From positions 1 through 36,517 of the forward strand of contig NZ_CAMYOM010000032.1 in NCBI RefSeq assembly GCF_947260015.1: a stretch of DNA of 36,517 nucleotides. Direction: 5' to 3'. The notes below the pieces were generated by a model, which saw only the letters and a list, made by a program, of their open reading frames with translations, was not told the origin of the DNA and ran no database searches. Source of the stretch: an uncultured Eudoraea sp. Its GTDB lineage: Bacteria > Bacteroidota > Bacteroidia > Flavobacteriales > Flavobacteriaceae. Within the stretch, counting starts at the first letter, position 1. Each line of letters begins with the position of its first letter. Both the position numbers and the translations under genes were made by a program. This document shows, piece by piece, positions 2,998 to 24,989 of the stretch.

Positions 2998-5900
2998 TCA
3001 AATAACTGCCTTCTGCTGTTTTTTTGACAATGGTTGAAGTACTTCCAGAGCTTTATTTACAGATTTAATACGATCGAAAATTAAAAGTAACCTAAGCCCA
3101 TTACGGGTTTGTTTTTCTTTAAGCTTGCAGGTTTCATTATGCTGTTGTGCATAAGAAAGAACATTTGAAAAATCCGGGCTTTGGAAAAAGGCAGACTGCT
3201 GATCTGAAATAAAGTAGCCCAATAGTTTCCCTTTTTTTAAAACTACTTTTTCTAATCCAATACCCGTGGCAATCCACTTGATTCGAACTGAGTTAAGCAA
3301 ATCCTCCACCTGTGTTGGGTACGCACCAAATCTGTCAATAAGTTGAGACTCGAATTCTTGAAGTTCTTCTTCAGTACTAAGCGTGTTTAATTCGGTATAG
3401 AGGTTTAATCGTTCTGTGGTGTTGTTAATATAATCATCGGGGAACAGCAATTCAAAATCTGAATCTAACTGTGTATCTTTTACAAATATTTTTTCCTTTC
3501 TTTCAGTTTCCTCATAAAGGTCCTTGAATTCATTTTCTTTTAATTCATCAATAGCTTCGGACAATATTTTCTGATAGGTTTCAAAGCCAATTTCGTTTAT
3601 AAACCCACTTTGTTCGCCCCCCAACAGATCTCCTGCACCGCGAATTTCAAGGTCTTTCATTGCTATGTTAAAGCCACTTCCCAATGCGGTATACTGTTCC
3701 AATGCCTCAATTCGTTTCCTGGCATCGGGGGTCATTACCTCATATGGGGGTGTAATGAAATAACAAAAAGCCTTCTTATTACTTCGGCCAACACGTCCCC
3801 TCATCTGATGCAGATCACTTAATCCAAAGTTATTTGCATTATTGATAAAGATGGTATTTGCATTTGTCACATCCAAACCACTTTCTACAATGGTGGTAGA
3901 GACCAAAACATCAAATTCCCCATTCATAAAAGCCAGCATTAAAGTTTCCAATTTCCTGCCCTCCATTTGACCGTGCCCTATACCGATTTTTGCATCAGGC
4001 ACCAACCGCTGTATCATTCCGGCAACCTCCTTAATATTTTCTATTCTGTTGTGAATAAAAAATATTTGCCCACCTCTTTGAATTTCATAGGATATGGCAT
4101 CACGTATTACTTCTTCACTAAATTGTGTCACATGACTTTCAATGGGATACCTGTTTGGTGGTGGTGTGTTTATAACAGATAAATCCCTCGCCGCCATTAA
4201 ACTAAATTGCAGCGTTCTTGGAATAGGAGTAGCCGTAAGCGTAAGAACGTCTACATTTTCTTTTATTGATTTTAATTTGTCTTTAACTGCTACCCCGAAT
4301 TTTTGTTCTTCGTCAACAATAAGCAATCCCAGGTCTTTAAACTGAACATTTTTGCTAGCCAATTGATGTGTGCCTATAAGGATATCTATTTTGCCTGATT
4401 GTAATTCATCAAGAATTATGCGCTTCTCTTTTGCAGTTCTAAAACGGTTAAGATAATCTACTTTAACCGGCATTTCCTTCAGTCGTTTGGAGAATGTTCT
4501 GTGGTGTTGAAATGCAAGGATAGTTGTAGGTACCAAAACTGCCACTTGTTTTCCGTTTTCTGCCGCCTTGAATGCCGCCCTTATTGCAACTTCAGTTTTT
4601 CCAAACCCAACATCGCCGCAAACCAGCCTATCCATAGGCCTTTCACTTTCCATATCTTTTTTGATATCTGCTGTAGCAGTTCCTTGATCCGGGGTGTCCT
4701 CATAAATAAAAGAGGCTTCCAGTTCCAGTTGCAAATAGCTGTCTGGTGCGTATTGAAATCCTTTGTCCAGTCTTCTTTTGGCATAGACTTTAATAAGATC
4801 AAAGGCTATTTTCTTTACTCTGGATTTTGTCTTTTGTTTAAGTTTTTTCCAGGCTGCAGATCCTAATTTGTAAATTTTAGGGACCGCTCCATCCTTTCCA
4901 TTGTATTTGGAGATCTTGTGTAATGAATGAATACTTACATAAAGGATGTCGCGCTCACCATACATTAATTTAATAGCCTCTTGTTTTTTGCCTTCCACGT
5001 CAATTTTTTGAAGCCCGCCAAATTTGCCTATCCCATGGTCTATATGGGTCACATAGTCGCCTATTTCCAATTTGTTGAGGTCTTTTAGTGTAATGGCCTG
5101 TTTTTTGGCATAACCGTTTCGCAAATGAAATTTGTGATAGCGCTCAAAAATCTGATGGTCTGTATAACATGCAACCTTAAGGTCGTGGTCTATAAAACCT
5201 TGATATAATGGGAAGACTTTAGTTTTATAGTGCACATTTTCATCTACTTCATCAAAAATGTCATGGAATCTTTTGGTTTGTACTTCCGAGGAACAGAAAA
5301 TATAATTTTCATAACCCCGGTTGTTGTTCTCATTGAGATTAGTGATAAGTAAATCAAATTTCTTGTTGAAGGAAGGCTGAGGTGTAATATTAAAATCAAC
5401 ACTCTCAGAATTTGGTGTATTATCAAAACCTCCTAAAGTAGCGAGGGTAAAATTTGTTAATTGCTCTTTAAGCAAGCTGGAATTGGTAAATAATTCTTCG
5501 GGTTTCGATTGTTTTAGGTCAGAATTGAGTTCTCCAAATGCCTTTTGCGCTTTTTCAAAAAACAAATCAACCCTGTTATAAGTTAATTCCGGGTTTTTTA
5601 GGAATATTACGGTGTCCGGACTAATGTATTTCAGGAAACTTTCACGGCTTTCATTGAGGTGTTTATTTTCTACGTTGGGAATTATTCTAATCCGGTTAAC
5701 CTTGTCGGTAGATAGTTGGGTCTCTACATCAAAAGTCCGGATACTCTCTACTTCATCACCAAAAAATTCAATTCTATAAGGTTCATCATGTGAAAAGGAA
5801 AAGACATCCAGAATGCCCCCACGGACGGAGAACTCACCAGGTTCAGTAACAAAATCGACCCGTTTGAAGTGATATTCAAAAAGCACTTCATTTAGAAAAT

Positions 5901-6360
5901 CCAATGAAAGCGAGTCAGACTTATTTATTTTAAGGGTGTTTTTAGTTAATTCTTTTCTAGTGACAACCTTTTCAAAAAGTGCATCCGGGTAGGTAATGAT
6001 AACTGCAGGTTTTTTTCGGGAATTTATACGGTTCAAAACTTCTGCCCTCAGCAATACATTAGCATTGTCGGTTTCTTCAATTTGGTAAGGTCTTCGGTAG
6101 CTTCCCGGATAGAAGAGCACGTCCTTTTCACCTATGAGCTGCTCAAGATCATTAAGTATATATGCGGCTTCTTCTTTATCATTCAAAACAAGGAGAAAAG
6201 GACGATCTGTTTTATTAAAGATTGCTGAAATTAGAAAGGAAAAAGAGGATCCGCTAAGGCCATTTAAACTAATGTTAGGTTGGTTTTGGACAATAAAATC
6301 CTTCAGTTTCCTGAGTTGAGGAGACTGCGCATACAGTTGCTGCAATGAAGATTTGGTCAA
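2998..6360 (-). CDS. mfd: transcription-repair coupling factor Mfd
   Basis: About 1120 residues. Mfd is the ATP-driven translocase that pushes stalled RNA polymerase off lesions and recruits UvrA. In order: an N-terminal UvrB-like region (to about 340); a CarD-like RNA-polymerase-interaction domain with EIGDYVTHIDHGIGKF (about 440-455) and GERDILYVSIHSL; a RecG-like helicase core with Walker A GFGKTE (about 587), DEEQKFGV (about 690) and TATPIPRTL; the GRVGRSNKKAFCYF segment; and a C-terminal UvrA-masking domain (YTELNTL, LIDRFG). No ATG is in frame near the start. The possible starts are TTG at 6378 or TTG at 6360. I chose 6360 because its product (MTKSSLQQLY) resembles family starts and because a -7 box covers the upstream TTG. 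It lies downstream of pdeM in the same direction. Confidence 0.95.
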   Translation of the reverse strand: MTKSSLQQLYAQSPQLRKLKDFIVQNQPNISLNGLSGSSFSFLISAIFNKTDRPFLLVLNDKEEAAYILNDLEQLIGEKDVLFYPGSYRRPYQIEETDNANVLLRAEVLNRINSRKKPAVIITYPDALFEKVVTRKELTKNTLKINKSDSLSLDFLNEVLFEYHFKRVDFVTEPGEFSVRGGILDVFSFSHDEPYRIEFFGDEVESIRTFDVETQLSTDKVNRIRIIPNVENKHLNESRESFLKYISPDTVIFLKNPELTYNRVDLFFEKAQKAFGELNSDLKQSKPEELFTNSSLLKEQLTNFTLATLGGFDNTPNSESVDFNITPQPSFNKKFDLLITNLNENNNRGYENYIFCSSEVQTKRFHDIFDEVDENVHYKTKVFPLYQGFIDHDLKVACYTDHQIFERYHKFHLRNGYAKKQAITLKDLNKLEIGDYVTHIDHGIGKFGGLQKIDVEGKKQEAIKLMYGERDILYVSIHSLHKISKYNGKDGAVPKIYKLGSAAWKKLKQKTKSRVKKIAFDLIKVYAKRRLDKGFQYAPDSYLQLELEASFIYEDTPDQGTATADIKKDMESERPMDRLVCGDVGFGKTEVAIRAAFKAAENGKQVAVLVPTTILAFQHHRTFSKRLKEMPVKVDYLNRFRTAKEKRIILDELQSGKIDILIGTHQLASKNVQFKDLGLLIVDEEQKFGVAVKDKLKSIKENVDVLTLTATPIPRTLQFSLMAARDLSVINTPPPNRYPIESHVTQFSEEVIRDAISYEIQRGGQIFFIHNRIENIKEVAGMIQRLVPDAKIGIGHGQMEGRKLETLMLAFMNGEFDVLVSTTIVESGLDVTNANTIFINNANNFGLSDLHQMRGRVGRSNKKAFCYFITPPYEVMTPDARKRIEALEQYTALGSGFNIAMKDLEIRGAGDLLGGEQSGFINEIGFETYQKILSEAIDELKENEFKDLYEETERKEKIFVKDTQLDSDFELLFPDDYINNTTERLNLYTELNTLSTEEELQEFESQLIDRFGAYPTQVEDLLNSVRIKWIATGIGLEKVVLKKGKLLGYFISDQQSAFFQSPDFSNVLSYAQQHNETCKLKEKQTRNGLRLLLIFDRIKSVNKALEVLQPLSKKQQKAVI

Positions 6361-6375
6361 CCGTTTAAATTTGTG

Positions 6376-6383
6376 CAAATATA
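6376..6383 (-). promoter_or_regulatory. candidate -7 box upstream of mfd
   Basis: On the minus strand TATATTTG matches the -7 consensus TAnnTTTG exactly. If used, transcription would begin downstream of the TTG at 6378 and leave the TTG at 6360 as start, with a very short leader. No clear -33 element is seen, so mfd may instead depend on readthrough from pdeM. Confidence 0.4.
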
Positions 6384-6415
6384 AATCCTGAAAGCTTGGC
6401 AGACCATGATTTGGC

Positions 6416-7048
6416 TCAAATTTTTATAATTATGTCATCTGCAATAGCAAAAACCTCGTCCTTCAGAGCTTTCTTCATGGTATAAGATCCTGTAAATTTA
6501 CCAAATGCCGGAAGGATTAATTGATCTTGTGTCTTGAAGAAACAAGGAAGTCGAAGAGATTGTTTTCCTCTGCCTCTAAGTTTAATTGCCGGATGAATAT
6601 GTCCTGCAAAATTAAAATATCCTTGTCGCTCTTCCGGATGATGTGTGAGCAGAAATTTTTCCGAGGCTAATTCTGATACTACCTGAATTCCAATTCGCTC
6701 ATACCTCAGAGGTGAAATTATATCGTGATTCCCTCTAATTAAAATAAATTTTAGCTTAGAATTCTTAACCCAGGTTTCAAAGAGTTCCCATTCGCGGTTT
6801 AATGAAGAGTGAAACAAATCTCCTAAGAAACAAACTACTTTGGGATCAAAAAAAGCGATAGTTGAATCAAGCAAATCAAAATTTTTGTAAATGGCCCCCC
6901 GGGGAACGGCTGCACCAAATTTCCTAAAATGAGAGATTTTACCCAAATGCACATCACTGATCAAAAGGATGGCCTGCTCCTGCCAAAAAAGTGTACCGCT
7001 TGGATGCAGGATGAAATTCTGATCTTGAATTTGAATAGTTTGGGTCAT
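6416..7048 (-). CDS. pdeM: ligase-associated metallophosphoesterase PdeM
   Basis: A 210-residue calcineurin-type phosphoesterase with all metal-binding motifs: SDVHLGK (31-37), GDLFH (76-80), RGNHD (105-109), THHP (135-138) and GHIHP (149-153). The FRKFGAAVPRG segment after the first motif and the position next to an Lhr-type DExH helicase match the 'ligase-associated DNA damage response endonuclease PdeM' family. It lies 73 bases downstream of the helicase and about 55 bases upstream of the chosen mfd start, all on one strand. It is expected to be a cytoplasmic DNA-acting or nucleotide-acting phosphoesterase; the exact substrate is not visible. Confidence 0.88.
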   Translation of the reverse strand: MTQTIQIQDQNFILHPSGTLFWQEQAILLISDVHLGKISHFRKFGAAVPRGAIYKNFDLLDSTIAFFDPKVVCFLGDLFHSSLNREWELFETWVKNSKLKFILIRGNHDIISPLRYERIGIQVVSELASEKFLLTHHPEERQGYFNFAGHIHPAIKLRGRGKQSLRLPCFFKTQDQLILPAFGKFTGSYTMKKALKDEVFAIADDIIIKI

Positions 7049-7121
7049 TTTTTCAAAGATAAATCATGTAATGTTTATGTGATAAAAGAATTCTAATTAG
7101 ACTTCCCTTTTCATTAATTTT

Positions 7122-9671
7122 TCATTTGCTTTTGGTTAAAATGGCGCTCATTCTCTTGATACGGTCTGCTAACTTTTCACTGGATAGTTTTTCCCTCAAT
7201 CTGTCCGTGATTAATGGGAAAGAGAAGGGTGTAGGACTGGTACAAGGTCTCCATACGATCTCCTGCCCCGCAATACGTTCCAGAGCAATTCGCAAACGAC
7301 CTTCTTCCAACTGATGTTCAAAAGTCTCTCTGAAGGCTTGCTGATACAATAGGTTGTCCGATTCATAATCCTTGAAAACATCAAACAAAAGCTGAGAATT
7401 ACTCTGTAAATGCTTCATTTTAATTCCTTTTTTTGGGTATCCTGTAAAAACCATTCCGCCAATTACTGCAATATCGCGGAACTTTCGACGTGCCATCTCA
7501 GTTGAATTCAAGCTTTTTTGAAGATCATCGATCAAGAAGGAGGTCGTAAATAAATCGTTATCAAGAACCTGTTGCATATCCACTTCTTTATCCGATAAGA
7601 GTTCAAAGCCATAGTCATTAAAGGCAAGCGAAAAAGTAATAGGAGATAGCAGGCTAATTCTGTAGCTCAGTAAACTGCCCATTGCCTCGTGTACAAATCT
7701 ACCTTCAAAGGGATAAAAAATATGATGGTAACCATCCTGAGTTTGAAATGTCTCTATTAAAAACTCATCAGGTTTAGGCACTGTACTTTCCAATTGCTGT
7801 CTGGCAAAAAGGCCGCTGAGTGCTCTAATCTCCGCTGACTGTTCTTTTTCATTCAATTGTACTGAATAAAGTTCTTCTCTCAGCAATTTTGACATTTGTG
7901 CAGAAAGTGTTAATCTGCCGCCCATCCATGCTGGCACCTTTGAGGATTTTTTGGATGAATTTCGTACATGAGCCTGCATTTCCTTTATGCGGATAAATTC
8001 CAGATTTCTACCCGCAAAGGTAAACACATCGCCTTGCTTTAATTTGGAAATAAAAGATTCCTCTATGGTACCAATATAACCACCTTTCTGATAGCGAACA
8101 GTAATATTTGCATCGCCAACAATAGTGCCTATTTGAAACCGATGCCTCATGGCAACCCCGCGATTGTTTACTTTGAATTTTCCGTTTTCATCTACCTCAA
8201 CCTTTTTATATTCATCATAGGATTGTAAACTCTGACTTCCCAAAACAATGAAGTTTAAAAGCCAGTGCCATTCATCGAGGGTAATACTTTGATAGCAAAA
8301 GGTTTGCTTAATTTCCGGAAAGATCTTGTCAGGAAAAAAACCATCTGAAACGGCAAGTGTGATTAAGTACTGTATTAAAACATCAAAGCTATTGAGATAG
8401 GGGATTCTGTCTTCAACTGCTTTTTTTTCTACAGCCTGTTTTAGGGCAGAAGCCTCTACTAGTTCGATGGCATGGGTAGGAAGGAAATAAATAACACTTT
8501 CTTCGCCGGGTCGATGACCACTTCTTCCCGCTCTCTGTAAAAACCGGGCAATACCTTTTGGCCCTCCAATTTGCACTACAGTTTCTACCGGAGCGAAATC
8601 TACACCGAGATCCAGGCTTGATGTACACACCACAGCTTTTAGACTTTCATTTCTTATGGCTTGTTCTACCCATTGCCTTGTTTTCTTATCTATACTTCCG
8701 TGATGCATGGCAATTTCCCCCGCTAATTCGGGATGTTTTTCCAGGATTTTTTGGAACCAGATTTCACATTGACTTCTCGTATTGGTAAATATTAGGGTTG
8801 TTTTACTATTATTAATTATTGGGATAACTTCATCAAGCAAGCGCAGTCCCAAATGGCCCCTCCAGGGAAAAGTTTCCATCTCTTTGGGAATAATGCTTTT
8901 TACGGTAATCTTTTTTTTGAGATTGGCCCTAATCATGACAGAATTTTGGTGAGCAGAAGATTCAGGACCCAGCAGTACTTCTCGCGCCTGCTCAAGATTG
9001 CCAATGGTAGCAGAAATACCCCAAATACGTATATCTTTTGCAATTCCCTTAAGTCGTGATAGCCCAAGTTCTGTTTGTACTCCTCTTTTGGTGCCCAGCA
9101 ATTCGTGCCATTCATCTACCACAATTGCAGAGCAGTTCTTAAAAATTGTATCATATCCTTTTGTGGCTAAAAGCAATTGCAGACTTTCCGGGGTCGTAAT
9201 GAGCAGGTCGGGCATAATGCTCCGTTGTCTGGTCCTTTCGGCAGTTGAAGTATCTCCTGAGCGTATGCCAACGGTAAGTTGGGTATCTAAATCCCGGATC
9301 ACTCTTTCTGCAGATTGTTTGATTTCCTGTGACAAAGCCCTTAGGGGAGTAATCCAAATTGCTTTAAGTCCTTTTTTATGTTTTGTCTTATATTCAGGGT
9401 TATTTTTAATATAGTTTAAAACAATAGGAAACCAGAGTGCATAGGTCTTGCCACTCCCTGTGGGGGCATTTAGCAGGCCGTGTTTTCCATTTAAAAAGGC
9501 CGACCAGGTTTTTAATTGAAAAGGGTAAGGCTTCCAATCTTGTTGCCTGAACCAATCTTCTGCCAGATTATAAAGTTGTTTTTCTGTCATTCTTTCCCTT
9601 CTGGCTTTCGACACAAATTGAGCCTGCGGATAGCTCTGTGAATTTACAAATTTCTCTTTAAAATCAATCAT
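7122..9671 (-). CDS. ligase-associated DExH-box helicase (Lhr type)
   Basis: 849 residues, near the family length. The helicase core shows Walker A APTGSGKT (69-76), TPLRALSQ (108-115), TTPESLQ (159-165), DEWH (186-189) and SAT (220-222). A second RecA lobe has MHHGSIDKKTR, TSSLDLGVDFAPV and QRAGRSGHRPG. A winged-helix and Lhr-core region follows (VYIxFAGRNLEFI-like residues and FYPFEGR). This is the Lhr-type 3'-5' DNA helicase of the ligase-associated DNA repair cluster. The usual ATP-dependent ligase and metallo-beta-lactamase exonuclease genes are not adjacent; the upstream gene is divergent and unrelated. An alternative start at Met28 would give an N-terminus closer to shorter relatives. 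Confidence 0.92.
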   Translation of the reverse strand: MIDFKEKFVNSQSYPQAQFVSKARRERMTEKQLYNLAEDWFRQQDWKPYPFQLKTWSAFLNGKHGLLNAPTGSGKTYALWFPIVLNYIKNNPEYKTKHKKGLKAIWITPLRALSQEIKQSAERVIRDLDTQLTVGIRSGDTSTAERTRQRSIMPDLLITTPESLQLLLATKGYDTIFKNCSAIVVDEWHELLGTKRGVQTELGLSRLKGIAKDIRIWGISATIGNLEQAREVLLGPESSAHQNSVMIRANLKKKITVKSIIPKEMETFPWRGHLGLRLLDEVIPIINNSKTTLIFTNTRSQCEIWFQKILEKHPELAGEIAMHHGSIDKKTRQWVEQAIRNESLKAVVCTSSLDLGVDFAPVETVVQIGGPKGIARFLQRAGRSGHRPGEESVIYFLPTHAIELVEASALKQAVEKKAVEDRIPYLNSFDVLIQYLITLAVSDGFFPDKIFPEIKQTFCYQSITLDEWHWLLNFIVLGSQSLQSYDEYKKVEVDENGKFKVNNRGVAMRHRFQIGTIVGDANITVRYQKGGYIGTIEESFISKLKQGDVFTFAGRNLEFIRIKEMQAHVRNSSKKSSKVPAWMGGRLTLSAQMSKLLREELYSVQLNEKEQSAEIRALSGLFARQQLESTVPKPDEFLIETFQTQDGYHHIFYPFEGRFVHEAMGSLLSYRISLLSPITFSLAFNDYGFELLSDKEVDMQQVLDNDLFTTSFLIDDLQKSLNSTEMARRKFRDIAVIGGMVFTGYPKKGIKMKHLQSNSQLLFDVFKDYESDNLLYQQAFRETFEHQLEEGRLRIALERIAGQEIVWRPCTSPTPFSFPLITDRLREKLSSEKLADRIKRMSAILTKSK

Positions 9672-10204: not shown

Positions 10205-10241
10205 GGAAAACAATAAAAAACGAAAGCACTATTGGTTTTCC
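10205..10241. terminator. possible terminator between convergent TerB-like and fbp genes
   Basis: Arms GGAAAACAATA (10205-10215) and TATTGGTTTTCC (10230-10241) pair with one bulged base around a 14-base loop. The right arm covers the fbp stop codon. The stem is AT-rich, so it would be a weak terminator. Confidence 0.35.
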
Positions 10242-11251
10242 CGGTCTCTTTGTCTGGCCATAAATTCTTCTGCTTTTTCTACCATTTTAGGGCTGCCACA
10301 GAAAAAAGGCACGCGTTCGTGCAATTCTGTCGGTTGTATTTCCATTATTCTTGTAAAACCATCACTGGCTTTTCCATTTGCTTGTTCTGCTATAAAAGCC
10401 ATGGGATTACATTCGTAGAGCAGACGTAATTTACCGTTAGAAGCCATACTACTCTTAGGGTATAGATAAATACCACCCTTTATCATATTTCTGTGAAAAT
10501 CTGAAACCAGAGAACCAATATATCTTGATGTGTACGGCCGGTCTTCCTCTTCTAATTGGCAGTATTTGATATAATCCTTTACACCCTGATGAAAATGAAT
10601 ATAATTACCTTCATTAACCGAATATATTTTACCTGTTTCCGGATACTGCATATCCGGATGGGAAAGATAGAATGTGCCTATAGCCGGATTTAGTGTAAAT
10701 CCGTTTACGCCATGTCCTGTAGTATAAACCAGCATCGTTGAGGTGCCATAAACTATATAACCGGCAGCCACTTGATTAATTCCGGGCTGTAAAAAATCCT
10801 CGAGCTTAACAGGTGTCCCCACTGGAGTAACTCTCCGGTAAATGGAAAAAATAGTCCCTACAGAAACATTTACGTCTATATTTGAGGAACCATCCAGGGG
10901 ATCAATTAAGACAACATATTTATTCTGATGTAGTTCATCATGACTGTTAATTGTAATAAAATCATCTTCTTCCTCAGAGGCTATACCGCAAACGATTTCC
11001 CTGTTTTTTAAGGTTTGTATAAATATTTCATTGGCCATCACATCTAGTTTTTGCTGATCTTCGCCCTGAATATTAGTATCTCCGGCTGCCCCGAGGATAT
11101 CCACAAGCCCTGCCTTATTCACCTCGTGGTTTACTACCTTACAGGCTAAACGAATTGCATTTATCAGTCTGGAAAATTCCCCTGAAGAGTATTGAAATGA
11201 AGTCTGGTTTTCAATAACAAATTCACCAAGAGTTTTATTTTTTTTATCCAT
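10229..11251 (-). CDS. fbp: class 1 fructose-1,6-bisphosphatase
   Basis: 340 residues, the normal length. The enzyme hydrolyses fructose 1,6-bisphosphate to fructose 6-phosphate in gluconeogenesis, in the cytoplasm. Visible features are the acidic ASEEEDD segment (about 90-96), the metal-binding signature [10 protein letters not shown] (about 116-125) followed by [12 protein letters not shown], the [13 protein letters not shown] segment, and the substrate-binding GGIYLYPKS...[17 protein letters not shown]...SDG block near the C-terminus. It is a single gene with its own ATG. The divergent GNAT gene starts 113 bases away. Confidence 0.96.
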
Positions 11252-11337
11252 AAAAGAAGGTTGTTTTATATGAGTACAAATATCGGTTATTTTGTTAAAC
11301 TATATCGTTTTCGTAAGCACTAAGTTTTTTAAGTTTA

Positions 11338-11345
11338 TAACTTTG
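11338..11345 (+). promoter_or_regulatory. candidate -7 box for the GNAT-aspartate kinase unit
   Basis: TAACTTTG fits TAnnTTTG exactly, 19 bases before the ATG at 11365. No good -33 TTTG is found at standard spacing. It would drive both the truncated GNAT and the overlapping aspartate kinase. Confidence 0.45.
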
Positions 11346-11364
11346 TGTTTTATTTGCAACAATT

Positions 11365-11766
11365 ATGAAATATAGTATTAGAGAGGCCGTAGCAGCCGAT
11401 ATGCCTGCGGTTTTACAACTTATTAAAGAACTGGCAGTTTTTGAGAAAGAAGAAAATGCCGTTGAGACCACAACGGAAGATTTGGTGCGCGATGGTTATG
11501 GAAGTGATAAACTATTTCATTGTTTTGTGGGTGCTACAAATGAAACTATAGCAGGGATGGCCCTATTATATCCACGCTATTCAACCTGGAAAGGATCTAT
11601 ATTACATCTGGAAGATCTAATTGTGGCGGAAGCATTCAGGGGGGGTGGACTTGGTACCGCTCTTTTAGATGAGGTTGTAAAATACGGATCAAAATTGGGC
11701 GTTAAACGTATATCATGGGAAGTCTTGGATTGGAATGATCCGGAAATTTGGAGGAGCATCGGTTAA
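11365..11766 (+). CDS. GNAT acetyltransferase, C-terminally truncated
   Basis: A 133-residue protein related to spermidine/spermine-type GNAT acetyltransferases, which are normally about 155-165 residues. The start (IREAVAADMPAVLQLIKELA), the strand HLEDLIV and the acetyl-CoA loop FRGGGLGTALL (about 93-103) are intact. After WEVLDWNDPEI (about 119-129) the family continues with a P-x-I-x-F-Y-x-x-x-G stretch and a last strand. Here it stops after four unrelated residues (WRSIG), inside the start of the aspartate kinase gene. The final strand and helix, which help form the active site, are therefore missing, and the protein is probably inactive or misfolded. The 32-base overlap with the kinase gene and the abrupt loss of similarity suggest a deletion junction near 11746-11755. 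Confidence 0.8.
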   Translation: MKYSIREAVAADMPAVLQLIKELAVFEKEENAVETTTEDLVRDGYGSDKLFHCFVGATNETIAGMALLYPRYSTWKGSILHLEDLIVAEAFRGGGLGTALLDEVVKYGSKLGVKRISWEVLDWNDPEIWRSIG

Positions 11767-12985
11767 AGATGCCAATGGAATAAGAAATTTAGTTAAAGTC
11801 CTTGAGGAAACAGGACATCAGAACACATTTTTGGTGGTTTCTGCAATGGGAAAAATGACCAATGCAATGGAGGCTGTGGTTAAAGCGTATTTTGATAAGC
11901 GGGTGGGATTAAAAAATGCTTTTGAGGAAGTAGTCTTGTATCACCAAACTATTCTGGAGGACTTATTTGAAGATAAAAAGCATCCGGTTTATGAAAAGGT
12001 TGCTCTTCTGTTTGAAGAGGTGCAAGGCTTTTTAGCATGGAACAAATCTCCAAATTACAGTTTTGTTTATGACCAGGTGGTAGGATATGGTGAATTACTA
12101 TCAACCACCATCGTGAGTATGTACTTAAATGAAGTAGGCATAAAAAATTTCTGGATTGATATTCGGGATTTTATTAAAACTGATGACAATTATAGAGATG
12201 GCAGGGTAAACTGGGAAAAAACACAACAGTTAATTTCAGAGGGTGTAGAAAAGAATAAATTATACATTACACAGGGATTTTTGGCAAGTAACGATAATAA
12301 TTTTACCACAACACTTGGCAGAGAAGGTTCTGATTATACTGCTGCTATTCTCGCATACTGTCTCAATGCCAATTCTGTTACCATATGGAAAGATGTTCCG
12401 GGAGTCCTTAATGCAGATCCGAGGTATTTTGAAGAGACAAGTCTTTTAAACAAAATATCTTATCGCGAGGCTATAGAACTAGCTTTTTATGGGGCTTCTG
12501 TAATCCACCCTAAGACTTTACAGCCACTGCAGAGAAAGGAAATACCACTGTATGTAAAATCGTTTATTAATCCCAGGGGTGCCGGGACTACAGTTGGCAA
12601 AGGTATAAAGATTGAACCCGAAATTCCTTGTTTTATCGTTAAGAAGAACCAGGTGCTGATGAAACTCTCCTCCCTTGATTTTTCATTTATTGTTGAGGAT
12701 AGTATAGGTGACCTCTTTAAATTGCTTCATGATTATAGAATGAAGGTGGACCTTATTCAAAATTCCGCAATTAGTTTTTCCGTATGTGTAGATAATAAGT
12801 TTAACCGGCTTAATGATTTATTGGATCAACTGTCCGGTAAGTTTAAGGTGGTCTGCCATGAAGACGTTTCTTTGTATACCATCCGACATTTTAATACAGA
12901 TGCTATAGAATCTTTACAGAATGGGCGAGATGTTCTTATAGAACAGCGCGGAAAGGAAACCTTGCAAATCGTGGTAAAGCAATAA
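11735..12985 (+). CDS. aspartate kinase (monofunctional)
   Basis: 416 residues. It phosphorylates aspartate, the first step toward lysine, threonine and methionine. The N-terminal kinase motif KFGGASVKDA (4-13) is complete, as are VVSAMGKMTN, TLGREGSDYTAA (about 191-202), IWKDVPGVLNADPR and IHPKTLQP. Two C-terminal ACT-type regulatory segments follow, from about residue 300. The ATG at 11735 lies inside the upstream GNAT reading frame, and the pre-KFGG segment (MIR) is about one residue shorter than usual (M-x-V-x-KFGG), consistent with a start codon borrowed from GNAT sequence after a deletion. Translation probably depends on coupling to GNAT. The lysine/threonine feedback type cannot be told from sequence alone. 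Confidence 0.92.
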   Translation: MIRKFGGASVKDANGIRNLVKVLEETGHQNTFLVVSAMGKMTNAMEAVVKAYFDKRVGLKNAFEEVVLYHQTILEDLFEDKKHPVYEKVALLFEEVQGFLAWNKSPNYSFVYDQVVGYGELLSTTIVSMYLNEVGIKNFWIDIRDFIKTDDNYRDGRVNWEKTQQLISEGVEKNKLYITQGFLASNDNNFTTTLGREGSDYTAAILAYCLNANSVTIWKDVPGVLNADPRYFEETSLLNKISYREAIELAFYGASVIHPKTLQPLQRKEIPLYVKSFINPRGAGTTVGKGIKIEPEIPCFIVKKNQVLMKLSSLDFSFIVEDSIGDLFKLLHDYRMKVDLIQNSAISFSVCVDNKFNRLNDLLDQLSGKFKVVCHEDVSLYTIRHFNTDAIESLQNGRDVLIEQRGKETLQIVVKQ

Positions 12986-13070
12986 ACTAAAAGCAGACTT
13001 TTACTATGTTAAAAAAAGGGGGCTCTCCTCTTGATTTTCCTATATTTACTTATATATAGTCACATATTCT

Positions 13071-14882
13071 ATGGGTTTAGTCACCGTAAAAGAAGTAGCC
13101 AAGGCAATTAATCTCCAGCGATATGGTTTTTTGGGAACGTTCATGGGATGGATCCTGGTAAGGTTAACCAAGTTGTCGGACATTAATAAGTTTTATGACA
13201 ATAATAAGCAATTGGAAGGACCTGAATTCCTCGACGCCATCCTTGAGCACTATGAAATAGACTTTGAAATTCCGGAAGGTGATTTTAAGAGACTACCTAA
13301 GGATGGAGCCTACATTACTATAAGCAATCATCCGCTGGGAGGTATTGATGGGGTTTTACTTCTTAAGTTGATGTTGCAACAGAGACCGGATTTCAAGATT
13401 ATTGCTAATTTTTTACTTCACCGGATCGAACCAATGGCGCCCTATATCATGCCTGTGAACCCTTTTGAAAATCACAAAGATGTCAAAAGCAGTATTGCAG
13501 GTTTTAAAAACGCTTTGAGCCATTTAAGGGATGGACATCCCCTGGGTATTTTCCCGGCAGGAGAAGTATCTACCTATAAAGATGGGAAACTAATAGTTGA
13601 CAAGCCCTGGGAGGAATCTGCTTTAAAACTTATTCGAAAAGCTGAGGTGCCTGTTGTTCCTATTTATTTTCATGCAAAGAATAGTAAATTATTCTATCAT
13701 TTATCAAAGTTCAACGATATCTTCAGGACGGCTAAATTACCTTCTGAAGTTACAACACAAAGGAACAGGGCCATTAAAGTAAGAATAGGACAACCAATTT
13801 CCGTGAAATCCCAGAAGGAAAATAAAAGCTTAGAGGAGTTTTCAGAACTGTTACGTAAAAAAACCTACATACTCGCAAATGCTTATGAAAAAGAACGCTT
13901 AACAGTTCAGATACCCACCACTTTAAAAATACCAAAACCTCCAAGAAAGATAGTAGGTGAAATAAGGACAGAGGTAATACAAGGAGAATTAGAAAAATTA
14001 AGAGAGAAGGATTGTCGTTTATTGCAAAGTAAGAATTATGAGGTGTTCCTGGCTCAGGAAAAAGATATGCCTTTTATTCTTAAGGAAATAGGAAGACAAA
14101 GAGAACTGACATTCAGAGCAATAGGCGAGGGCACCAATAATTCTATTGATCTGGATAAATTTGATTACTACTATCACCATTTATTTTTATGGGATAACGA
14201 TGAAAAAAAAATAGTAGGTGCCTATAGAATGGGGATGGGGTCCGAGATTTTTAAGATCTATGGAATTGATGGTTTCTATTTACAGGACCTGTTTGGTTTT
14301 GAACCTGAATTATACGGAATGATGCGGCAGTCCATCGAAATGGGACGCGCATATATTGTTAAGGAATATCAGCAAAAACCAATGCCTTTGTTTCTGCTTT
14401 GGAAGGGCATAGTTCACACTACATTAAGGCATCCCGAACATAAATATTTAATTGGTGGAGTTAGCATAAGTAACCAATTTTCAAATTTTTCCAAGTCCCT
14501 GATGATAGAATTTATGAAATCAAATTATTGGGATCCATATGTAGCACAATATATCAGGCCGAAAAAGGAATTTAAAGTGAAATTAAATGATGCGGATAAG
14601 GATTTTATATTTGATGAAACGGAGGCAGATCTCAATAAATTTGACCGCTTAATTGAAGAGGTTGAACCCGGCAGCCTTAGGTTGCCAGTACTTATAAAAA
14701 AGTATATTAAACAAAATGCCCGGGTAGTAGCTTTTAATGTTGACCCGTTATTTAATAATTCGGTAGACGGCTTGATGTATATAAAAATAGCAGACTTGCC
14801 AGAGAGTACGGTAAGGCCTGTGATGGAGGAATTCCAGGCAGAGTTGGAAAGAAAGTTTACCGAAAATAGCGATAGCTCCTAG
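13071..14882 (+). CDS. bifunctional acyltransferase, OlsF-like (ornithine/amino-acid lipid synthesis)
   Basis: 603 residues with two acyltransferase halves. The N-terminal half (about 60-270) is a lysophospholipid-acyltransferase domain with SNHPLGGIDG (85-94, the His...Asp catalytic motif) and FPAGEVS (161-167). The C-terminal half (about 310-520) resembles OlsB-type GNAT N-acyltransferases (RELTFRAIGEG, FDYYYHHLFLWD, VGAYRMG). The same order is known in OlsF of Serratia and Flavobacterium, where the C-terminal half N-acylates ornithine and the N-terminal half adds the second acyl chain. The product here is expected to be an aminolipid (ornithine or glycine lipid), made at the inner face of the membrane. 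It lies 85 bases after the kinase gene. A TATATTTA at 13041-13048 is a possible -7 box. Confidence 0.8.
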   Translation: MGLVTVKEVAKAINLQRYGFLGTFMGWILVRLTKLSDINKFYDNNKQLEGPEFLDAILEHYEIDFEIPEGDFKRLPKDGAYITISNHPLGGIDGVLLLKLMLQQRPDFKIIANFLLHRIEPMAPYIMPVNPFENHKDVKSSIAGFKNALSHLRDGHPLGIFPAGEVSTYKDGKLIVDKPWEESALKLIRKAEVPVVPIYFHAKNSKLFYHLSKFNDIFRTAKLPSEVTTQRNRAIKVRIGQPISVKSQKENKSLEEFSELLRKKTYILANAYEKERLTVQIPTTLKIPKPPRKIVGEIRTEVIQGELEKLREKDCRLLQSKNYEVFLAQEKDMPFILKEIGRQRELTFRAIGEGTNNSIDLDKFDYYYHHLFLWDNDEKKIVGAYRMGMGSEIFKIYGIDGFYLQDLFGFEPELYGMMRQSIEMGRAYIVKEYQQKPMPLFLLWKGIVHTTLRHPEHKYLIGGVSISNQFSNFSKSLMIEFMKSNYWDPYVAQYIRPKKEFKVKLNDADKDFIFDETEADLNKFDRLIEEVEPGSLRLPVLIKKYIKQNARVVAFNVDPLFNNSVDGLMYIKIADLPESTVRPVMEEFQAELERKFTENSDSS

Positions 14883-14919
14883 TTTAATTCCTTCTCTGCA
14901 AATAGTTAAAAAAAATCTT

Positions 14920-17828: not shown

Positions 17829-18099
17829 AGTTGTTTTATTTCTGTTGTAGTCGTAGCGTAAAAATGAACACGTAAGCACCTAATTTAAATACCATGTTTT
17901 TCATGCTCTGGGATTTTTGTGTTGGTTCAAAACTAAAGAGCAGGGGAGGGATACATTTTATACTAAAGTACTAAATTGCTTCTTTTGTTGTTTAAAAAAG
18001 CATTAATTAAATGAACCTCATAGCCTTATTGATTTGGAAGGCCAGTGTTCTTCTTATCGTGTTCAGCGTTATCAGGAGTTTGGAGACATGAATTTTTGT

Positions 18100-19731
18100 T
18101 TAGCTCTTTTTACTTTTTTTACCCTTTTTGTCTTCCTTAATAATCATTTTTTGTACCCCTTTCCCGGGAACGATTCTAATGAAACCATTAATTAATCCTT
18201 GAACAATATAATTAATTGGTGAGCGAGCTACATTCCTTTTAGTTTGATAGTCGGCAACAAGATATTTGTCCTGACCAGGCATATTATTTGCCCGAATGGC
18301 GGTATTTGCAATTGCAGAAAGAAATCCCATATTTTTAGATTTGTCTTTGTTCTTTTCATTCAGCAATTTCACTTCTAAGTTGCTATAATCAAATACCATG
18401 TTGTTTTGGGATTTTAATTGGCCGGCGTTCATTTGAAACTTAATCCGGTTCATTTGTCCGGTTACCATTTCAACACCTGCCAGAGGTTTTAAAGTAGAGT
18501 TTAAGTTGGTCAAACCCATGGCTCCAACATCTACGAGCAGTGAAAATGTTTCTTTATCATATGGAACATCTAGTTCAACATTAATTGGGGCTTTACCTTT
18601 AAGGCTAGCACTAATTTTTGCTTCTAAATGACCTTTATTTATTTGTTCTTTGGGCATGTTAGTGATGCCGGTAATAGTTCCATTAATTTCCTGAATTTTA
18701 AGCGATCCTGATTCACTTTTTTTAACTCCAAGTTCATTATAGGTTACTGAAGAATTTGAAATTTGAATGGAGTCTATAAGAATTTCCATGGGAATTGAGT
18801 TAATAATACCTTGAAACAAAGGTTTAACTACATCCGGAGGCCTGGGAATATTCTTGTTTCTTTGCAGTTTAATGTTCAGTTCGTCTAAAGAAATCTTTCG
18901 GGCTTCAATATCTAGTTTTGTATAGAAATCGCTAGATGGCTCAAGCTGATGTATACCAATTTCTTTTACATTTAACTCAATAATATCGTTTTGGACCCCG
19001 GCGCGCTTACTAACTTCAACCCAATCTATTGAATAGCCCAGGGAAATATCATTCAGCAAAAATTCTTTGTCCATCAGGTTGTAATGAAGACTACCTAAGC
19101 TAATATCTGTATAGTCGTTTGGTTTGAATGTAATACTATCTATATCTATATTTAAATTACCCACTTGAAAGGGGATCAGGTTTTTGAATTTCAAAGAATC
19201 AGTTTCTATTTCAGTCGCCAGTATATTTAATCGCTTAACCTGACCTTTTATGTCTTTTGAATCAGAATCTTTTAAAATAATTGAACCATTTTGAATGCGA
19301 AAACTGTTTAGATCGGCACGCGATATTATATCACCAAACATTACTTGTAACCCTTTTCCGCTGGTACTTTTAGTAGTATCTGCACTAAGTGTCACTTCAA
19401 ATATTGGTTGTTCGAAGGCAATCTCATCTAAATTTAATTTTTTGCCAAACAACAATTCTCTCCATACTATTCCATTAATGGTAGCGTAATCTACATGTCC
19501 TGTAATTATGGTTCCGTTTCCAGGGTTTAAAGGTTCAATACGGACTTCGTCTAAAGTTACCCCTTTAAAAAAGGTGCCTAAATCAAAATCAGAATACGTA
19601 ATGTTGTAAGCTCTATCGGGATTTGAATTTAGCCTGACTTCGAATTTCGATTCAATCCTCCATTCCAGCCCCTTCATAATCAGGAATATTATTCCTAAAA
19701 CTACTAGCACTCGAATGGTGATCTTTTTCAT
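18100..19731 (-). CDS. AsmA/DUF748-like membrane-anchored protein
   Basis: 543 residues. An N-terminal transmembrane anchor (about 6-22) is followed by a long beta-strand-rich region with repeated LNLDEIAFEQP- and IGIHQLEP-type strands, typical of AsmA- and DUF748-like periplasmic proteins proposed to help lipid movement between membranes. The C-terminus is very basic (KEDKKGKKSKKS). The family assignment rests on general architecture rather than an exact motif. It is the last gene of the long minus-strand run and begins 30 bases after the dehydrogenase gene. Confidence 0.6.
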   Translation of the reverse strand: MKKITIRVLVVLGIIFLIMKGLEWRIESKFEVRLNSNPDRAYNITYSDFDLGTFFKGVTLDEVRIEPLNPGNGTIITGHVDYATINGIVWRELLFGKKLNLDEIAFEQPIFEVTLSADTTKSTSGKGLQVMFGDIISRADLNSFRIQNGSIILKDSDSKDIKGQVKRLNILATEIETDSLKFKNLIPFQVGNLNIDIDSITFKPNDYTDISLGSLHYNLMDKEFLLNDISLGYSIDWVEVSKRAGVQNDIIELNVKEIGIHQLEPSSDFYTKLDIEARKISLDELNIKLQRNKNIPRPPDVVKPLFQGIINSIPMEILIDSIQISNSSVTYNELGVKKSESGSLKIQEINGTITGITNMPKEQINKGHLEAKISASLKGKAPINVELDVPYDKETFSLLVDVGAMGLTNLNSTLKPLAGVEMVTGQMNRIKFQMNAGQLKSQNNMVFDYSNLEVKLLNEKNKDKSKNMGFLSAIANTAIRANNMPGQDKYLVADYQTKRNVARSPINYIVQGLINGFIRIVPGKGVQKMIIKEDKKGKKSKKS

Positions 19732-19761
19732 TTTATTAATGGTTTTCTTTGTACTCTGAAT

Positions 19762-20700
19762 TTAACAAAATCTGGACTTAATTTTGTCTACAATAGTCTG
19801 AGCTAATTTCTCCTTGCTCTCAATGGTCCACCCGGCAACATGCGGAGAGAGAATAACATTTTCGGCATCAATTAGATATTGAAAGGCTTGGGGGAGTTCA
19901 TGCTGAGTAAACATGTCTTCAAATGAAGTTTTCTCATATTCCAGAACATCTAATCCCGCGCCCAATATTTTACCAGATTTTAAAGCGGTAACAAGGTCTT
20001 TGGTTACTATACATTTTCCTCTTGCCGTATTTAATAACCAAAAAGGTTTTTGAAATGCATTGATAAACTCAGTGTTAATCATTCCCAGGGTTAGTTCGGT
20101 TTGAGGTACGTGCAGGCTTATTATGTCTGATCTTTGCTCCAATTCCATGATCCCTACCTGCCGGGCATTTTCATCAGATACCCCCCCAACAATGTCGTAG
20201 CAAATTACTTCGACATCAAAACCGCTGAGTTTTTTAGCAAAGGCTTTTCCTGTATTACCATAACCGATTATACCAACAGTTTTGCCATCAAGTTCTACCC
20301 CCCGGTTTCCTTCCCTGTCCCATATGCCTGTTTTTACTTCACGGTTGGCTTTGGTCAAATTATTAAAAAGGGCCAATAATAATCCCAGGGCATGTTCCCC
20401 AACAGCATTGCGATTACCTTCGGGGGCCGCCGCTAAAAAAATTCCTTTATCCCAGGCATAATCCATGTCGATATTTTCCAAACCAGACCCAAGTCTTCCA
20501 ATAAATTTGAGGTTTTGGGCTTTGTCCAAAAAGGTTTGGTCTATGGCAAATCTACTTCTGATAATTAGCCCGTCATAGAGGTGAATTGTCTTTTCAACCT
20601 CAGATTTGGGCGCAGTATATTCTTCAACATTCTCAAAACCCAGGGCTTTGAATTCCTCTATGAGCAAAGGATGGTTGTTGTCTAGGTGGAGGATTTTCAT
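19762..20700 (-). CDS. D-2-hydroxyacid dehydrogenase (NAD-dependent, SerA-like)
   Basis: 312 residues. The N-terminal part has RLGSGLENID (69-78), the nucleotide-binding loop is GYGNTG (146-151), and the catalytic set is Arg227 (LNTARG), Glu256 (DVLEYE) and His287 (SPHVAG). The enzyme reduces or oxidises a 2-hydroxy/2-oxo acid; it lacks the ACT domain of full-length phosphoglycerate dehydrogenases, so its substrate cannot be fixed. It lies 6 bases after the cupin gene. Confidence 0.9.
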   Translation of the reverse strand: MKILHLDNNHPLLIEEFKALGFENVEEYTAPKSEVEKTIHLYDGLIIRSRFAIDQTFLDKAQNLKFIGRLGSGLENIDMDYAWDKGIFLAAAPEGNRNAVGEHALGLLLALFNNLTKANREVKTGIWDREGNRGVELDGKTVGIIGYGNTGKAFAKKLSGFDVEVICYDIVGGVSDENARQVGIMELEQRSDIISLHVPQTELTLGMINTEFINAFQKPFWLLNTARGKCIVTKDLVTALKSGKILGAGLDVLEYEKTSFEDMFTQHELPQAFQYLIDAENVILSPHVAGWTIESKEKLAQTIVDKIKSRFC

Positions 20701-20706
20701 TCTTTT

Positions 20707-21072
20707 TTAAATTTTTGGATATTCGGTTTGTGTCTTTGCGTGCTGCACGTTTCCCGTATGGGCCGTTGCCAACTTCTCGAAGAGCAATAAATGTACTTCT
20801 TCATTGTTTTTTGTAGACGGATTGTGTTCTACACCCTTTGGAACAACTATGATTTCACCTTCATTCACAACCTCTGTCCGGTCTCTGAATTGCATATATA
20901 AAGTACCTTTTAAAACCTGAAATAGTTCATCCTCATTTTCGTGGGAATGCCATACAAACTCTCCCTGAATCTTTGCGAGGATTACCTGCATATCATCTAC
21001 CTCCGCTATTTTATGCGGGTGCCATGTTTTACTAAAGGCGGCATGTTTCTCTTTTAAATTTATAGCTTTCAT
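20707..21072 (-). CDS. cupin-domain protein
   Basis: A 121-residue single-domain cupin: motif 1 WHSHENEDELFQVLKGTLYMQF (His/Glu metal ligands) and motif 2 EIIVVPKGVEHNPS with His. It could be a small-molecule isomerase, dioxygenase or sensor. Its placement between a nitrilase and a 2-hydroxyacid dehydrogenase, with 38- and 6-base gaps, suggests a shared metabolic role, but this is inference. Confidence 0.85.
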   Translation of the reverse strand: MKAINLKEKHAAFSKTWHPHKIAEVDDMQVILAKIQGEFVWHSHENEDELFQVLKGTLYMQFRDRTEVVNEGEIIVVPKGVEHNPSTKNNEEVHLLLFEKLATAHTGNVQHAKTQTEYPKI

Positions 21073-21110
21073 TTCTATTAACTTAAGTCTAATTTATTAT
21101 AGAACATATT

Positions 21111-22031
21111 TTATTCCTTTTTGGTTTCAGGCTGATCTTTGACGTCAAATTCAAAAATATCATTCCTGGCGTAATGACCAATTACATCAAAATCGAGTTT
21201 GTTTAACTTAATTTCTTCAAGATCTATTTCAGCTACAAGAACTCCGGCTTTATCATAAAATGGACCGGCAAGAATTTTTCCGTTAGGAGCAACTATAAGA
21301 CTTCCTCCGCGACACATTGTTTCGGGCTCATCGGCAACAAGAGTCTGGTATTTTTCCGGATACATTGATTTGGTAAAATACTGGTTGCAACCTAGCACGT
21401 AGCATCTGCCTTCTAAAGCGATATGTTGCATTGTGGAGGTCCATTCTTCCCTGGCATCTGCCGTAGGGGCTATATAAATTTCAACGCCTTTTCTGTACAT
21501 TGACATTCTGGCCAGAGGCATATAATTTTCCCAGCAGATCAGGCCTCCCAACTTGCCTATTTTAGTTTGATAGGTAGTTAATGATTCACCAGATGCTTCT
21601 GCCCAGACAATTCTTTCGGTTCCTGTAGGTTTAATTTTTCGATGCGTACCCAGCAATCCGGAAGTAGGGGATATATAGAGCATTGAACAGAATAGACTAC
21701 CACTAATATCATCTTTTTCGGTTACTCCAATAACCAGGTAGGTCTTATTTTTTTTTGAAATGTCTTCGAGTCTTTTAAGGTCTTCACTCTGTACATTGAG
21801 GCTGTTTTCATAATATTCAGCATAGAGCTTGCGCCCCTTTTCAGATCTGCTGCCTATGGTGGCACCGAATGTAAATCCTCTTGGGTAACCCGGAATAAAA
21901 GATTCCGGAAAAACCAATAAATCACATCCCTTCGCTGCATATGTTTTGGTGATCTGCTCAATTTTAGAAATTGTTTCCACCTTATTAAAAAAAACAGGGC
22001 TTTCCTGAACTAATCCAACTTTTATTAGCAT
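21111..22031 (-). CDS. nitrilase (carbon-nitrogen hydrolase, nitrile-type branch)
   Basis: 306 residues from ATG 22031; the longer frame starts with TTG at 22088 and adds a non-family 19-residue segment. The Glu-Lys-Cys triad is visible as Glu43 (FPESFIPGYP), Lys132 (HRKIKPTGTER) and Cys166 (ICWENYMPLARM). The CWENYMPLAR...IYIAPTAD pattern is characteristic of true nitrilases and cyanide-hydratase relatives rather than amidases, so conversion of a nitrile to acid plus ammonia is expected. It lies downstream of mgtE and upstream of the cupin. Confidence 0.88.
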   Translation of the reverse strand: MLIKVGLVQESPVFFNKVETISKIEQITKTYAAKGCDLLVFPESFIPGYPRGFTFGATIGSRSEKGRKLYAEYYENSLNVQSEDLKRLEDISKKNKTYLVIGVTEKDDISGSLFCSMLYISPTSGLLGTHRKIKPTGTERIVWAEASGESLTTYQTKIGKLGGLICWENYMPLARMSMYRKGVEIYIAPTADAREEWTSTMQHIALEGRCYVLGCNQYFTKSMYPEKYQTLVADEPETMCRGGSLIVAPNGKILAGPFYDKAGVLVAEIDLEEIKLNKLDFDVIGHYARNDIFEFDVKDQPETKKE

Positions 22032-22106
22032 AGACTGAAATTCTTGAATAGAATTTATTTTAGATTTCGGGAACTCTAAGGTATCCAATTTTAATAAAAG
22101 TGAAGT

Positions 22107-23459
22107 CTAAATTCCCAAAATAACTTTTGCTATCCAGAAATAAATCAGGATTCCGAAAATATCATTACTCGTTGTAATAAAAGGACCGGTCGCAATAGCC
22201 GGATCTATACCCCTTTTATCCAGAAACAAGGGAATAAAGGTTCCGATTATTCCTGCAACGATGATTACCACAACCAGGGAAATTGAAATGGCAAGTGCCG
22301 CAGGAAAATTGCCTTGCCAGAACCATGTAAAAACTAAAAGAACCAGTCCCAGGATTAGACCATTTAGTGCCGCCAGAAGCATTTCTTTAATGAGACGGTT
22401 ACTAATGCTTCCCTTGAGGTCATCATTGGCGAGTCCCTGTACTATGATGGCACTTGATTGCACACCAACATTACCTGCCATGGCGGCAATTAAAGGTGTG
22501 AAAAAGAATATGATTGCATGTTTGCTTATCATTTCTTCAAAACCTCCCATGATAGCCGCTGCACCAATACCGCCTAAAAGTCCTAAAAACAACCAGGGTA
22601 AGCGGGCTCTTGTCAAATCCCAAATACTATCATCGGCCTCCACATCCTGTGAGATACCTGCTGCCAGCTGGTAATCTTTCTCAGCTTCTTCCTTTATAAC
22701 ATCTACGATATCATCAATGGTAATTCTCCCAACCAACCTGCCAATCTCATCAACTACGGGAATGGCTTCAAGGTCGTATTTGGACATAATTTTAGCTACT
22801 TCCTCGGGTTTTTCATTTACGTTAACCCGATCCACTTTTGGAATATAAACATCTTTAATCGGAGATTTAGTGGAAGTGGTTAAAAGATCCTTAAGTGAGA
22901 GTCTGCCTTTTAGTTTGTCATCATCGTCTACCACATAAATAGAGTGCACCCTGGTAACATTTTCGGCCTGGGCCCTCATTTCTTTTACGCAGGTAAGTAC
23001 GTTCCAATTTTCATTTACTTTTACCAACTCCTTGGCCATAAGTCCACCTGCAGAATCTTCATGGTAGCGCAAAAGATCTACAATATCTTTGGCATGTTCC
23101 CGGTCTTCTATTTCCGAAATTACTTCTTCAACTATTTCCTGTGGAAGTTCTCCCACAATATCCGCTGCATCATCTGTGTCCAGTTCATCTAATTCTTCCG
23201 CTATTTCCTTGGAAGATAAATTATTAAGAACAGCCTCCCGCATATCATCATCCAATTCAATGAGTACGTCGGAGGTTTTATCACTATCCAGAAGTTTAAT
23301 AAGATAAGTAGCCGATTCTTCACTAAGATCATTCGCTATTTCTGCAATATCGGCATAGTGGAGCTCTGCCATGAAAGACTTTAAATCTCCGTCTTTCCCG
23401 GATTCTATAAGCAGTTCAATTTCTGCAAGTAGCTCGTCTGTAAGTTTAAATGGAGTCAT
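22107..23459 (-). CDS. mgtE: magnesium transporter MgtE
   Basis: 450 residues. An acidic N-terminal domain (to about 130, with [17 protein letters not shown]), a CBS-domain pair (about 130-255; [20 protein letters not shown]) and a five-helix membrane part (about 285-450) with the conserved [11 protein letters not shown] and [12 protein letters not shown] segments that line the ion path. It is a Mg2+-gated channel in the inner membrane. A GTG at 23462 precedes the ATG by one codon; I chose the ATG. It overlaps ksgA by 14 bases, implying translational coupling. Confidence 0.95.
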
Positions 23460-24306
23460 CACCTATCATCTTGGTCAGCGCGATAAATTGGGTAACAGCC
23501 AATTCTTCGGGACGCCGGTCAAAGATAGCATCTTCTTTTAGATTATCAGAAAGGTTAAATATTTTTAAGCTGTTTCTTAAAGTCTTTCGCCGCTGGTTAA
23601 ACCCTGTTTTAACTACTCTAAAAAACAATTTTTCATCACAATCCATTGTTAAATCATCTTTTCTTACAAGTCTTAATACCCCTGACTCTACTTTTGGAGG
23701 GGGATCAAAAACCTCTGGATTAACAGTGAAAAGATATTCGGCATGATAGAACGCCTGGACCAAAACAGAAAGAATACCATAGGTTTTATTTCCTTCTTTG
23801 GCACAAATTCGCTTAGCGACCTCTTTTTGGAACATTCCTGAAAATTCCGGAACCCTGTTCCGAATTTCCAATAACCTGAAAACAATCTGCGTAGAAATAT
23901 TATAAGGGAAATTACCGGTTATGGCAAAAGGTTCCATATTAAACAATGTTGAAAGGTCGTATTTCAGGAAGTCGGCCTGTATTATCTCAAGTGAATTATT
24001 TTGCTGCAGAATTTCATTGTGTTCCAACTGAAAGCTATGTTTAAGGTAAATGATAGATTCCTCATCCAGCTCCATCCCTACAAGGTTCATAGAGCGCTGC
24101 AACAAATATTTTGTGAGAACTCCTGTACCGGGCCCAATTTCAAGCACATTGGTGTAACCATCCATTGAAAGCGTATCGGCTATTTTTTTGGCAATTTCTT
24201 CATCTCTAAGAAAATGCTGCCCCAGATATTTTTTAGCTTTAACCGGACTTTCTACCTGGTAGGCACTCTTCTTAAACGAGCTGTGTTTTTTACGTTTTTT
24301 GCCCAT
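23446..24306 (-). CDS. rsmA: 16S rRNA dimethyladenosine transferase KsgA (RsmA)
   Basis: 286 residues. It dimethylates two adjacent adenosines near the 3' end of 16S rRNA using S-adenosylmethionine. It shows GQHFLRD (29-35), EIGPGTG (56-62, SAM loop), GMELDEESI and the catalytic NFPYN (132-136), with a C-terminal RNA-binding part ([12 protein letters not shown]). A basic tail of about 22 residues precedes the usual start. It is 3 bases after the DUF4286-GGCT gene and overlaps mgtE, the usual flavobacterial order. Confidence 0.95.
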
Positions 24307-24309
24307 AGT

Positions 24310-24957: not shown

Positions 24958-24989
24958 ACATCAAATATTATAAGTCAGTATATGCAAAT

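Follow-up and report, generated by a model that had tools for sequence, protein, structure and literature searches.

Illegitimate joins formed during gene exchange have been studied mostly in laboratory transformations. In homology-facilitated illegitimate recombination (HFIR), which the available text of PMC3240628 describes for Streptococcus pneumoniae, Acinetobacter baylyi, and Pseudomonas stutzeri, one end of the incoming DNA is homologous, the other is joined illegitimately, and recipient DNA is deleted; microhomology of 3-10 nt is usual at the junctions but not obligatory. Imports by natural transformation are described, in the accessible part of PMC13344027, as short discontinuous segments of <100 nt to >30 kb set in recipient DNA. 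Within the available open-access text, we found no report on recombination in Eudoraea.

The DNA analyzed here (the window) is a whole contig of 36,517 nt (G000:C32) from a 3.42-Mb draft genome in 98 contigs of Eudoraea, a marine genus of the family Flavobacteriaceae. It carries, in this order, genes for a fructose-bisphosphatase on the reverse strand, a GNAT acetyltransferase, an aspartate kinase, and a two-domain acyltransferase (Table 1). Two Eudoraea relatives, G001 and G006, served as stand-ins for the donor-like and the recipient-like parent, respectively, and G006, chosen for its long contig, was the yardstick across the whole window. We propose, with a probability of about 0.66, that the locus was shaped by one homologous import whose illegitimate right end deleted recipient DNA. 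Like the HFIR products in the available text of PMC3240628, it has a homologous left end and a non-aligned right end at which recipient DNA is deleted. It differs from them in that the join lacks microhomology, in that there is no wholly foreign insert (the tract is homologous to relatives up to the join), and in that ~0.1 kb rather than an average of ~1 kb is deleted. The event thus appears to work like HFIR, although we do not file it as a proven or textbook member because it has neither microhomology nor a non-homologous insert. As in the transformation mosaics of PMC13344027, so far as its accessible part describes them, a short donor segment seems to be set in recipient DNA, but here one edge doubles as a deletion. 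The event is of a known kind and unusually legible, and since a donor-like and a recipient-like relative have both been sequenced, both edges can be placed within ~20 nt.

Table 1. Coordinates of the features discussed, in window positions.
Feature	Position	Strand	Remarks
Class 1 fructose-bisphosphatase gene	10229..11251	-	5' 183 codons within the G001-like tract, remaining 157 outside
G001-like tract (putative import)	10703..11743		Covers the first 183 fructose-bisphosphatase codons, the intergenic stretch, and the 5' portion of the GNAT gene
Final 99 nt of the tract	11645..11743		No difference from G001 before the join
Truncated GNAT gene, SSAT/thialysine-acetyltransferase-like	11365..11766	+	133 aa; from ORF, profile, and alignment
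Join	11743..11744		CCGG (GNAT side) meets AAATTTGG (kinase side); 109 nt missing relative to G006, 50 relative to G001
Overlap of GNAT end and kinase start	11735..11766	+	32 nt
Aspartate kinase gene	11735..12985	+	416 aa; new start MIR-KFGG replacing MRVF-KFGG
Two-domain acyltransferase gene, 3' of the kinase	13071..14882		Nearest NCBIfam model OlsF (ornithine lipid synthase)

A GNAT gene lies upstream on the same strand in 101 of 102 distinct loci having this kinase, with loci whose kinase genes agree over their first 300 nt merged into one count and those with other kinases (L002, L003) or other GNATs (L042-L045) excluded; one listing of confirmed stretches gave the best 80 of 556. The GNAT has at least 155 aa in 98 of these 101 loci, the exceptions being the window, G001, and L080, which is cut by a contig end. 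The kinase begins with M-x-[VI]-[FY]-KFGG, close to the M-x-V-x-KFGG that a preliminary description of the sequence had taken as usual, at 100 of the 101 loci, that is, in all 100 relatives and not in the window. Since relatives have full-length GNATs and normal kinase starts, the overlapping arrangement is, by this comparison, derived rather than ancestral. An ordinary family overlap was rejected, as the commonest spacing is a 4-nt overlap (37/101 loci) with full-length GNATs, and the outcome that would have refuted the preliminary description, the window's overlap with a full-length GNAT in all relatives, was not seen. At one locus, L027 (G032:C1), the kinase has neither a GNAT nor a fructose-bisphosphatase neighbor.

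In a nine-genome alignment of the genus, the window tracks the GNAT gene through GATCCGG and then runs into AAATTTGGAGGAGC, which encodes Lys-Phe-Gly-Gly-Ala of the kinase. The intervening DNA, which measures 109 nt in G006, G003, and G008, 108 nt in G005, and 50 nt in G001, is lost from the window, and relative to G006 it comprises the GNAT end, the spacer, and the kinase start, as the preliminary description had proposed. The cause named there, deletion at a GAAATT repeat, did not hold up. A scan of 11300-12000 located GAAATT at 11743 and 11784; the second copy lies inside the kinase gene, while the first was made by the join itself, its G coming from the GNAT side and its AAATT from the kinase Lys-Phe codons, and in the aligned genus relatives the GNAT side of the break contains no copy. 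When G006 and G001 stand in for the parents, microhomology at the join is 0 nt: the bases that follow CCGG in them are CC or TT, and the base preceding AAATTT is T. Ku-dependent end joining was likewise rejected because no Ku homologue was found in the source genome. The window's junction had no exact match in viral contigs.

The two sides of the join differ in species affinity. Between 10703 and 11739, 165 of 195 informative sites are G001-like and 30 are G006-like, an excess of 135 that is the largest in the window; 5000 shuffles gave at most 17. The left edge falls in the interval 10694-10703, where homologous sequences within the fructose-bisphosphatase gene align. On the right, the last G001-like site is at 11739 and the first G006-like site at 11758, with the join between them, so the edge of the mosaic and the edge of the deletion coincide. 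Bases 11744-11757 do not tell the two parents apart, and G001-like sites beyond them (11773, 11782, 11789) are scattered among more numerous G006-like ones. In most 500-nt bins, identity of the window to G006 is about 82-94% (about 85-94% over most of the 36.5 kb), and its identity to G001 over most of that length is about 72-88%; in 100-nt bins of the tract, identity is mostly 73-85% to G006 (90% in one bin) and mostly 91-99% to G001. The fructose-bisphosphatase gene is itself a mosaic by synonymous divergence, with dS to G001 of 0.33 within the tract and 1.12 outside, and dS to G006 of 1.78 within and 0.61 outside. In the GNAT gene, only the distances from the window to G006, G003, G002, and G009 rise, while their mutual distances are as usual, which points to the window lineage as the recipient.

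A tree of the tract unites the window and G001 with support of 100/100, and the AU test rejects a clade of the window and G006 there (p-AU = 7.6e-46 with nine rows, 6.4e-4 with six). Topology tests on the flanks were mostly indecisive because the G001 branch is long. A grouping of the window with G001 was not rejected for the kinase (p = 0.12), the left flank at 10235-10694 (p = 0.20), 11744-14900 (p = 0.0535), or 3020-9600 (p = 0.0756); the best tree for 20000-33800 groups the window with G001 at weak support (68/72), and the row nearest to the window in a nine-row kinase tree is G007, not G006. Since the AU test does not reject the window-G001 grouping in the flanks, the case there rests on distances rather than topology, the window-G001 distance being ~0.09 within the tract and ~0.3 in 11744-14900. 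Because its two lips have different affinities, G001-like on the left and G006-like on the right, the join is, on this alignment evidence, a species boundary and the right end of the putatively imported tract.

The GNAT gene of G001 is also broken: 59 nt are absent from the same CCGG onward, and the frame reads WNDPVR before a stop. In G001 the remainder of the GNAT gene end is still present and the kinase start is normal; past the CCGG the window and G001 continue differently. Since the 99 nt before the CCGG are identical in the two, despite 79 mismatches across the full tract of 1,041 nt (P = 0.0004 on shuffling the 79 mismatches; 0.00145 on variable sites only), the left lip is likely common to both by recent descent. 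Because the 59-nt loss of G001 begins at the same CCGG, the donor probably carried a broken GNAT gene of the G001 type already. The truncation in G001 (locus L010, G001:C36, 1440-1530), starting at that CCGG, also counts as an independent one, with the kinase start intact.

Other G001-like tracts occur in the window and on another contig, C4, so exchange with the G001 lineage appears not to be confined to the join. The second tract in the window spans 41-1672, where 128 of 173 informative sites are G001-like; it lies at the contig end and covers most of a DUF1800 gene (23-1531). On C4 (L144-L146, G000:C4:20001-80000), three G001-like stretches exceed the 99.9% shuffle level; they are less pure than the tract at the join. 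Contig C22 has one marginal G001-like stretch, with an excess of 15 against a 99.9% level of 14 and 17,841 of 52,169 bases compared. The source genome encodes a ComEC-type protein, but this is not proof of competence because ComEC relatives also occur in the E. coli control.

Under the single-import reading, a G001-like Eudoraea donor would have replaced ~1,041 nt of a G006-like recipient. The left end would be an ordinary homologous crossover within the fructose-bisphosphatase gene, and at the illegitimate right end the donor's GATCCGG in the GNAT gene would have been joined to the Lys-Phe codons of the recipient's KFGG, deleting ~109 nt of recipient DNA that held the GNAT C-terminus, the spacer, and the kinase start. 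The edge of non-homology left by the donor's presumed GNAT deletion may be where strand exchange came to a halt. The same sequence could instead have arisen in two steps, if the donor lineage bore the full deletion joining CCGG to AAATTTGG and a later ordinary homologous crossover fell within the next few bases on the right. According to the available text of PMC3240628, illegitimate joining is far rarer than homologous crossover, and the bases right of the join fit either parent up to 11757; yet this history needs the switch to have landed in 11744-11758 by chance, and the known donor-like genome, G001, has another right lip together with a normal kinase start. We regard this two-step history as unlikely, and a single event would account for the coincidence of the edges.

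The 109 missing nucleotides and the new ATG of the kinase would also be expected from a simple deletion at a short repeat within one lineage, with no import, as the preliminary description had it. That explanation is very improbable given that species affinity changes at the join and that the breakpoints share no repeat in relatives. The description was right about the missing DNA and the new start codon and not about a repeat-mediated cause, the illegitimate end of an interspecies import being the most likely one in the light of the alignments. An assembly artefact, whether a gap closed in error or a chimaera built from Eudoraea strains sampled together, has to be weighed as well, as co-assembled strains can yield mosaic contigs, the draft is in 98 contigs, and the second tract lies at a contig end. 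The sides of the join have no overlap in the stand-in genomes, however, so a k-mer walk would presumably have needed a bridging molecule. Both frames are also readable across the join, with the kinase staying open, G001-like tracts lie inside another contig too, and each gene was found in one copy only in the source genome, all of which makes an artefact improbable. A wild genome appears here to retain an illegitimate join from gene exchange.

The GNAT protein keeps its native frame to residue 126 (WNDP) and then takes 7 residues from kinase DNA, ending in VLDWNDPEIWRSIG, which bears out the preliminary description of a family-like frame that then stops. The ~28 further residues expected in this family are real as a continuation, although relatives have ~32-40 past WNxP. 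The acetyl-CoA-binding core is present (PF00583, residues 37-126, 58.6 bits against a cut-off of 20.7). Diamine acetyltransferases 1 and 2 are the closest solved structures when the intact G006 GNAT is the query. Alignment to the SSAT/thialysine N-acetyltransferase branch (PDB 3bj7, 2bei, 2fe7, 12jc) covers residues 1-126, but unlike members of that branch the window protein lacks everything past WNDP, including the Tyr equivalent to SAT1 Tyr140, as counted on the alignment with the SSAT structures. The codon for this residue is lost: the pattern WN..[AV][ILV].FY, which holds the catalytic Tyr, occurs at 99 of the 101 loci and is missing from the window and G001, and neither the catalytic Tyr of WNxxxIxFY nor the C-terminal strands were found in the window GNAT. 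In the available text of PMC7271128, Tyr140Phe abolishes SAT1 activity, and in that of PMC4964394, helix alpha4 and strand beta6 form the GNAT acceptor site. The 133-aa protein is probably inactive, since the SSAT-type catalytic Tyr is gone.

No second intact GNAT copy was found in the source genome at E <= 0.001. Matches to this GNAT at E <= 1e-20 occur in 291 of 299 family genomes, and among the 150 matches listed from these 291 genomes, all but the window's reach at least residue 156 of 159. Relaxed selection on the short GNAT was considered and rejected: dN/dS between the window and G001 over 126 codons (0.148; 0.051/0.347), computed separately because G001 is absent from the 15-pair table, is slightly high relative to 15 genus pairs of intact GNATs (0.053-0.137) and far from neutral, a value that fits recent truncation and proves nothing. 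G032 and G283, which belong to one genus, have no GNAT match at E <= 1e-20 in either genome.

The kinase ORF begins with MIRKFGGASVKD, and its ATG is built, as had been noticed, from the Asn-Asp codons (AAT-GAT) of the GNAT gene. Capture of a new in-frame start was borne out too: this is the sole ATG, GTG, or TTG in the kinase frame after the preceding stop. Under the single-import reading, the kinase would stay readable through an ATG that lies out of frame in the conserved WN[DE] motif of the GNAT and places a branched residue, Ile, two before the Lys, as the family has. The protein retains KFGG and an AA_kinase domain (PF00696, residues 4-276), is 94% identical to the G006 kinase, and matches TIGR00657 at 258 bits (cut-off 208.7). 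Compared with monofunctional aspartate kinases of that family, it keeps KFGG and the rest of the sequence, but its N-terminus is MIR instead of MRVF, one residue shorter, and its ATG sits within the upstream gene. The dN/dS against G006 is 0.052; the kinase sequence is strongly constrained, and the event is too recent for selection since then to show. The kinase is probably functional with the new N-terminus. Even a weak start might be tolerated because kinase-domain genes also occur in two other frames of the source genome (818 and 1146 aa).

The 4-nt overlap common in the family suggests translational coupling of GNAT and kinase. Such coupling could persist in the window because the GNAT frame ends 29 nt beyond the kinase ATG codon, and ribosomes leaving the short GNAT frame there could still supply kinase translation. 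Folding energies at the start site are all similar (-9.1 kcal/mol in the window, -8.0 in G006, -8.8 in G001). A broader reading, which we offer as tentative, is that the GNAT deletion spreads between Eudoraea species by recombination, that its edge halts strand exchange and is blunt-joined to nearby recipient DNA, that secondary deletions start at the old edge, and that the short GNAT frame persists as a leader bringing ribosomes to the kinase. The locus illustrates how an import can harm one gene and remove the start of its neighbor while leaving the neighbor readable, in this case because an out-of-frame start codon was available. For annotation, what looks like overlapping genes with a short GNAT is here a scar, not a designed arrangement.

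Elsewhere in the window, ~1.9 kb at 17842-19741 align with nothing at the corresponding position of G006 or G002 but are mostly alignable in G001, G003, and G009; this stretch contains a 543-aa ORF (18100-19731, reverse strand) with no Pfam match. The acyltransferase 3' of the kinase matches OlsF at 406 bits, under the cut-off of 620, and its two halves match the GlsA and GlsB glycine-lipid models.
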